Shown here in pieces: positions 37,692-62,552 of a stretch of DNA of 64,000 nt; the first letter of the stretch is position 1; the number at the start of each line of letters is the position of its first letter. The notes under the pieces were generated by a model. That model had not been told where the DNA came from and ran no database searches. It saw only the letters and a program-made list of their open reading frames with translations. The position numbers were made by a program, and so were the translations under genes. Location of the stretch: positions 810,277 to 874,276 of the forward strand of contig NZ_LR881183.1 of NCBI RefSeq assembly GCF_904067545.1. Direction: 5' to 3'. The stretch is from Thermococcus camini (GTDB lineage: Archaea; Methanobacteriota_B; Thermococci; Thermococcales; Thermococcaceae).

Positions 37692-37755
37692 TGAATCAGC
37701 GAAGCGAAGACTCCTCATCGGTTCCCCCTCGGGTGTCCTCGGCTTCATCACTCTC
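37692..37755 (-). ncRNA. Weak candidate box C/D guide RNA between DUF2666 and ridA
   Basis: On the minus strand GTGATGA (37745-37751) is a good box C and CTGA (37696-37699) a good box D. Inside are CCGA (D'-like) and CCGATGA (C'-like, 37715-37721), which leave guides of 12 and 15 bases. The internal boxes are imperfect and no promoter of its own is visible. It could be processed from the mRNA, or be chance. Confidence 0.35.
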
Positions 37756-54377: not shown

Positions 54378-54950
54378 TCAGCCGCGGCCTTTCCCTATCC
54401 TGAATATATCCACCCGCGTGATGATGCCGGTTATCCTGCCCTCCCTGTTCTGGACGAGAACAGCTGGGTGCTCCTCCAGGAGGTACTTGACGACCTCCAG
54501 GTCTTCGTCCTCGTTCACTATCGGGAACGGCTCTTCCATGACCTCCATAACCTTGTGGTCGTAGATGTCCTCGTACTCGAGGCTCTGCCTGACGAGGGTT
54601 CTCTCCGTGACGGAGCCAACGACCTTGTTGCCCGCTATGACCGGAATCTGGGATATGTTGTGTTCGTTCATGAGCTTTATAACGTTCTCAACGCTGTCGT
54701 AGGGTTTGACTGAGAGAACCGGGGATGACATGACGTCCCTCGCAGTCAGCTGGGCCTTCTTACACTCGAGCAGAGCCTGGAGGATTCGGTTGAAGGTCGA
54801 GAGTCGCGGGTCCACCTTTCCGGTCTCCAGCTTGGCGATGTACGCCTGCGTGACCCCTGCCTTCTCCGCAAGCTCCTCCTGGGTTATTCCGAGCTCCTTG
54901 CGAATTCGCCTTATCTCCTGCGGTTCTATCGGTCGGGGAATTATCACCAT
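54378..54950 (-). CDS. HTH (Xre-type) regulator with paired CBS domains
   Basis: A 190-residue protein. Residues 10-60 are a Cro/CI helix-turn-helix (IRRIRKELGITQEELAEKAGVTQAYIAKLETGKVDPRLSTFNRIL). Residues 70-188 hold two CBS motifs (MSSPVLSVKPYDSVENVIKLMNEHNISQIPVI, MEEPFPIVNEDEDLEVVKYLLEEHPAVLVQ) that probably sense adenine nucleotides. GGTGG precedes the ATG. A TTATAA promoter element lies at 55003-55008. Target genes unknown; the binding protein gene lies downstream. Confidence 0.9.
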   Translation of the reverse strand: MVIIPRPIEPQEIRRIRKELGITQEELAEKAGVTQAYIAKLETGKVDPRLSTFNRILQALLECKKAQLTARDVMSSPVLSVKPYDSVENVIKLMNEHNISQIPVIAGNKVVGSVTERTLVRQSLEYEDIYDHKVMEVMEEPFPIVNEDEDLEVVKYLLEEHPAVLVQNREGRITGIITRVDIFRIGKGRG

Positions 54951-55032
54951 AAATAACCACCGATTATGTCGGCTTCTCAGAAACTAACTCCCGCCCTCCC
55001 GGTTATAAGCCTTCCTCAGAAGTGCATCGAAT

Positions 55033-55190
55033 TGTGGGCCGGGTACAGAGGCCCGCGTTCATTCGCTCGCGCGGGTGGATGCTCCCGGCCCTGTGGGCTC
55101 GGCGTGAGCACGCTCCGCTCACGGAACCCGGTGCCTCGCGGAGGCGGGTTGACCGAGCCCATGAGGAGACGCATTGTCCCCTCACTGTCG
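55033..55190 (-). ncRNA. GC-rich structured RNA, probable H/ACA guide RNA
   Basis: Read on the minus strand, stem GGGCTCGG/CCGAGCCC (55153-55160 and 55095-55102) is followed by ACA (55092-55094). A second stem GGGCCGGG/CCCGGCCC (55084-55091 and 55036-55043) is also followed by ACA (55033-55035). The second stem has an 8+8-base internal loop (AGCATCCA, CCTCTGTA) and an upper stem CCCGCG/CGCGGG whose loop holds GA/TGA as for a kink-loop. The top of the pocket is 16 bases from ACA, the right distance. A 5' hairpin (55162-55184) pairs fully only on this strand (G-U instead of A-C). TATA GGTTTTTAAGG at 55214-55224 fits a start near 55193. Confidence 0.65.
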
Positions 55191-55230
55191 GCGATTTGTT
55201 CTATGACCGACCACCTTAAAAACCTGAGCC

Positions 55231-62225: not shown

Positions 62226-62552
62226 GATCTCACCGGAAGAAGTTCGACAAAGGGGTTAAAAATGTGGGCTCGGCCCATCTCCATCCATCATCGGCGGCCG
62301 GACGGCGTCCTCCGGCGGTCCGGAGGGCGAGCCCTGTCCGCCCGGCATCGTCGCACCCGCTCATCGCTGCCCGAACGCTCCCGGGACCGGGCCACCGGGC
62401 GTCGTCGGATGCTCGTACGAATTATTTTCGGGGAAAATTTTAAGGGTTTCGGGATAAATAACTGACAGGAATATTCGGCTCTCGAATTCATGCCGAAAAG
62501 TATATAAATGGATGCACAGACCCGACCATACAAACCCTGAGAGGTGACGCTC
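62226..62552. other. Gene-free region holding a structured RNA and two promoters
   Basis: This stretch contains the translin promoter (about 62256), the GC-rich RNA, its own promoter (about 62440) and the rightward metK promoter AAGTATATAAATGG (about 62498-62511). The last sits about 28 bases before the expected start of a short metK leader. The structured part lies upstream of that promoter, so it is not a metK riboswitch. Confidence 0.6.
62263..62415 (-). ncRNA. GC-rich structured RNA, probable two-hairpin H/ACA guide RNA
   Basis: On the minus strand, stem CGCCCGG/CCGGGCG (62395-62401 and 62339-62345) is followed by GACA (ACA at 62335-62337). Stem GGGCTCG/CGAGCCC (62328-62334 and 62266-62272) is followed by ACA (62263-62265) and a T5 tract. 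Inner pairings include CCTCCGG/CCGGAGG. The TATA-like CTTAAAAT (about 62437-62444) predicts a start near 62415. The segment is far richer in GC than its surroundings and has no coding frame. The pseudouridylation pockets cannot be drawn as clearly as in the RNA at 55.1 kb. Confidence 0.55.

Follow-up and report, generated by a model that had tools for sequence, protein, structure and literature searches.

The HgcF (Pab35) double H/ACA guide RNA gene of Thermococcus camini and its candidate sites in 23S rRNA

The RNA called Pab35 in Pyrococcus abyssi is HgcF (PMC4652768). RNA-seq in that species placed its transcript at 318,227-410, as a discrete RNA with an end 12 nt past the Rfam end (PMC4652768). 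The sites given for Pa35.1 and Pa35.2 in P. abyssi are L2672 and L2549, respectively, and the pairing of Pa35.2 with L2549 has only one 3' pair (PMC4652768). For P. abyssi pairs, PMC4652768 cites published in vitro work on pseudouridine formation at the target and on the binding of L7Ae, Cbf5, Nop10 and Gar1. HgcF is also among the characterised ncRNAs of Thermococcus onnurineus (PMC5316973). We describe here the corresponding locus in a stretch of 64,000 nucleotides from Thermococcus camini (the window).

The window was scanned against all Rfam families. Positions 55022-55192 of the minus strand match RF00058 (HgcF, Pab35) from end to end, and the score exceeds the curated cut-off, which is 70 bits. 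The next best families in the same scan all fall under their own cut-offs. On the minus strand, the leader GCCGACA precedes a 5' hairpin, and then come two GC-rich hairpins with an ACA after each of them. The window thus holds two motifs of the archaeal H/ACA kind, a hairpin with an internal guide loop and then ACA/ANA. The coordinates of these features are collected in the table. The fold of 55022-55192, at -90.6 kcal/mol, is more stable than those of shuffled versions (z = -5.0), 1 in 200 of these being equally good.

A sequence-only reading of this DNA had proposed an H/ACA-type RNA on the minus strand, with two GC stems each ending in ACA, and had asked for a comparison with the Hgc RNAs. 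All of this agrees with the family match: both ACA hairpins and the 5' hairpin lie on that strand, and the RNA is HgcF itself. The span it gave, 55033-55190, is correct at the 3' end, the second ACA. At the 5' end the RNA goes slightly further, to about 55192 (GCCGACA). The RNA is real and its class was rightly assigned. It is an already known RNA, with nothing new in kind.

Table. Features of the HgcF locus in the window (positions of the whole stretch)
Feature	Position	Strand	Basis or detail
HgcF (Pab35) H/ACA sRNA gene	55022..55192	minus	Rfam RF00058, 140 bits, E 3.8e-32, model 1-168/168
TATA-like box TTTTTAAG of the HgcF promoter	55214..55221	minus	A/T conservation in 86 relatives
Conserved 5' leader GCCGACA	55186..55192	minus	near-invariant in 87 sequences; 24-28 nt 3' of the TATA-like box
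5' hairpin, no guide pocket	55161..55185	minus	pairing in relatives and Rfam consensus
H/ACA motif 1 (Pab35.1 type)	55092..55160	minus	lower stem GGGCUCGG/CCGAGCCC, K-turn GA...UGA, ACA at 55092-55094
Motif 1 left guide UCAACC	55147-55152	minus	
Motif 1 right guide GCUCACG	55103-55109	minus	
H/ACA motif 2 (Pab35.2 type)	55033..55091	minus	lower stem GGGCCGGG/CCCGGCCC, kink-loop, ACA at 55033-55035
Motif 2 left guide AGCAUCC	55077-55083	minus	
Motif 2 right guide CUCUGUA	55044-55050	minus	
HTH + CBS-domain regulator gene, not part of the RNA	54378..54950	minus	Pfam HTH_3 and CBS

The covariance search across Thermococcales found HgcF in 91 of 94 genomes. It is present in all 74 genomes of good quality, that is, at least 90% complete and clean. 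No match appeared in the 14 control genomes. Each of the 91 carries one full-score copy. Second matches are few and score well under the cut-off; that of T. camini (872528-872703 of the genome) overlaps HgcE. In one of the genomes, the match lies at 318231-318398, where PMC4652768 places the Pab35 of P. abyssi.

Upstream of the RNA, 86 relatives are 99-100% A/T at positions -28 to -24 relative to GCCGACA, with the consensus GTTTTTAAG. This conserved box is TATA-like, placed as would be expected of an archaeal TATA box, and GCCGACA is likely the transcript start. The 5' hairpin that follows had been noticed from the sequence, at the same place and on the same strand, and it is conserved: of 86 sequences, 85 form its first six pairs, and pair 2 exchanges C-G for U-A. 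It had also been taken as a possible sign of a non-standard guide. However, the hairpin belongs to the Rfam consensus of HgcF; being part of the published family, it is no departure from it. We rejected it as a third H/ACA motif, seeing neither a pocket nor an ACA box. PMC4652768 lists Pab35.1-.3 once, but Pa40.3 also occurs in its text, so the third label is perhaps that of Pab40.

Motif 1 was compared by aligning 87 distinct sequences from relatives and counting pairs. The sequence-only reading had described its first stem as an unusual three-way layout and thought that the guide might not be a standard one. In an alternative along these lines, motif 1 would normally be three-way and its guide strands would be locked by the internal target-like GGGUU and GUGAGC. 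Computed for the naked window RNA, the three-way junction is indeed the fold of lowest energy (-39.2 kcal/mol; a canonical fold drawn by hand, with no K-turn energy included, has -26.8 kcal/mol), which explains the earlier remark. At 37 C, 39 of the 87 relatives also fold three-way. Nevertheless, another 39 adopt the canonical fold and 9 some other, in an energy model without a K-turn or protein term.

The covariation favors the canonical stem. The K-turn stem keeps its pairing through double changes, with compensatory exchanges at four pairs (U-A/C-G, C-G/U-A, G-C/C-G/U-A and C-G/U-A/A-U). These are changes of the type for which the sequence-only reading had told one to look in related species. 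The three-way hairpins, in contrast, have no compensatory changes and are absent or broken in several relatives. In the second of them, the first three pairs consist of the K-turn's UGA and for that reason do not vary; whenever one of the remaining two pairs changes, the hairpin is broken. In five relatives (L053, L054, L092, L093 and L094), the apical hairpin of motif 1 is lost, and a short, plain kink-loop replaces the K-turn. The three-way junction was rejected on these two grounds, the missing covariation and the apical hairpin absent in five relatives. It is very unlikely to be the normal state of motif 1. There is a small chance, judging from the energy folds, that in the free HgcF of about half of the Thermococcales a three-way motif 1 would mask both guides by its target-like internal segments, L7Ae binding being the switch that exposes them.

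Motif 1 is then, on comparative evidence, a K-turn H/ACA motif of the ordinary type, since the covariation backs the K-turn stem and not the three-way hairpins. Its UGA lies 10-11 nt 5' of UGCUCAC in every relative. The UGA/GA is placed about 10 stacked layers above the pocket, as is usual for such motifs. From the pocket-closing pair to the ACA we counted 16 nt, within the expected 14-16 nt; the P. abyssi fold notation has 15 nt between the stem and the ACA of this motif, versus the 16 drawn here. An AA stands in place of GA opposite the UGA in 36 of the 87 sequences (from Pyrococcus and several other genera, L003-L011 among them). It makes a non-standard first sheared pair.

In motif 2, the kink-loop GA...UGA sits on ten stacked layers and is found in nearly all the relatives' sequences. 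The second ACA box is kept in 84 of 86 scored sequences. The distance from the pocket-closing pair to this ACA is 15 nt by counting. The earlier description, with an 8+8 pocket, a kink-loop (GA ... UGA) and a spacing of 16 nt, is valid if both C's of CCUCUGUA count as pocket. In the register taken from the comparison, the spacing of motif 2 is 15 nt.

For the targets, we scanned the 16S and 23S rRNA of the T. camini genome itself. Several registers were tried, so the counts from 150 shuffled guides are indicative only. Complementarity on both sides of an rRNA uridine was found at U2675 and at U2552/U2700, although U2552 is weak alone. Motif 1 fits best at LSU U2675, within GAACGTGAGC-TG-GGTTTA, where seven pairs form on one flank and four on the opposite one. 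Its score of 29 was equalled by 1 of the 150 shuffled guides. By this complementarity, U2675 is the most likely target of motif 1.

Motif 2 pairs at LSU U2552 (ACAGAG-TC-G) with six pairs and one pair. This register is not distinctive (14 of 150 shuffles reach the best score, which falls elsewhere), so the assignment of U2552 leans on PMC4652768. With its right guide moved by one base, motif 2 fits LSU U2700 (ACAGG-TC-GGATGCT) with five pairs, including one G-U, and seven. The score of 28.8 was reached by none of the 150 shuffles. The most likely targets of motif 2 are U2552 and, with the right strand shifted in this way, U2700.

In P. abyssi, the equivalents of U2552, U2675 and U2700 are 2575, 2698 and 2723 in a model-based numbering. 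An offset of 26 converts them to L2549, L2672 and L2697. The first two are the published sites of Pa35.2 and Pa35.1, and the single 3' pair reported at L2549 agrees with the pairing at U2552. These uridines, which lie close to the ribosomal catalytic centre, would be the HgcF guide sites in T. camini. The one-piece target TACAGAGG-TN-TGGATGCT, predicted by the sequence-only reading, is out of register. The prediction combines the 5' half of one site with the 3' half of a second: its right half matches U2552, its left half U2700. As a single 8+8 piece it was rejected: TACAGA was not found in the genome's own 16S or 23S rRNA, and the best 8/8 scores fall elsewhere (24.8 at SSU 1374 and 22.4 at LSU 2641).

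The next gene on the HgcF strand encodes the HTH-CBS regulator, a frequent neighbour of this RNA. Among 47 loci with enough flank, it starts 46-88 nt past the second ACA in at least 29. This arrangement would suit an RNA that is mainly a 5' leader regulating the HTH-CBS gene, its H/ACA-like parts being the regulatory structure. But in 18 of those loci the neighbour is another gene or is not recognised, several with a different following sequence, and the RNA stays. Likewise, the conservation of guides, ACA boxes and K-turns follows the pattern of H/ACA RNAs, and the P. abyssi transcript is discrete, ending shortly past the Rfam model. These points make a leader highly improbable. The possibility of chance GC-rich hairpins between genes has nothing for it beyond the high G+C and is negligible, refuted by the match to a curated family (E 3.8e-32) and opposed by the presence in nearly all the genomes, the covariation and the conserved promoter.

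Two sequence elements were noticed around the start of the HTH-CBS gene. At 54950-54970 of the minus strand, an imperfect inverted repeat (ATAATC-GGT-GGTTAT) covers the likely ribosome-binding site, with AATAACCGGTGGTTATT in the corresponding position of relatives. The repeat may serve as an operator, or it may form a hairpin that masks the ribosome-binding site. The spacer past the second ACA (54990-55030, minus) is conserved in many Thermococcus, with TTCGAYGCMCTTCTGAGGAAG and then CTTATAA. It perhaps holds the 3' end of the RNA and, after it, the HTH-CBS promoter.

We consider it almost certain that 55022-55192 holds the gene of HgcF (Pab35), the double H/ACA guide RNA of Thermococcales, with its own promoter and acting in the manner known for H/ACA RNAs. 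L7Ae would bind each motif at the K-turn or kink-loop, and Cbf5-Nop10-Gar1 would bind it at the stem and the ACA box. The internal loop of each motif would pair with 23S rRNA on either side of one uridine, which Cbf5 would turn into pseudouridine. Protein binding, catalysis and modification in T. camini are assumed here from the published P. abyssi work and from general knowledge of H/ACA RNAs; by the same analogy, HgcF is presumably expressed. The present analysis itself gives the family membership, the conservation of the RNA and of its promoter, the covariation and the rRNA complementarity. The comparison presents a known guide RNA, complete and conserved in the T. camini genome. It also fixes the fold of motif 1 from 87 sequences and offers three candidate pseudouridine sites.

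Compared with HgcF/Pab35 of Pyrococcus and Thermococcus, the window RNA is alike in length, 5' hairpin, two H/ACA motifs, guides, ACA boxes and rRNA sites. The difference lies in motif 2. In Pyrococcus, its stem has a G-U closing pair and a bulged base, whereas in T. camini the closing pair is an A-C mismatch, without that bulge. A difference of this kind is known, since the motif 2 internal loop of T. kodakarensis is reported to switch subfamily, 56 to 66 (PMC4652768).

Other RNAs were noticed in the window. The box C/D RNA sR45 (RF01274) is at 37694-37755 of the minus strand, with 64.1 bits. HgcE (Pab105, RF00060) is at 62247-62372, with 64.6 bits, about 7 kb from HgcF and on the same strand. 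Like HgcF, it is a double H/ACA sRNA of Thermococcales, with a weak cross-match of 19.1 bits, below the cut-off. However, it is a separate gene.

Outside the archaea, the parallel lies in the aligned positions. U2552, U2675 and U2700 align with 2457, 2580 and 2605 of E. coli 23S rRNA, the positions that the bacterial stand-alone pseudouridine synthases RluE, RluC and RluB modify. Unlike HgcF, these enzymes are protein-only and use no guide RNA. Because the three HgcF sites align with positions of stand-alone synthases, the same rRNA sites would be reached by unrelated means, by synthases in bacteria and by a guide RNA in archaea.
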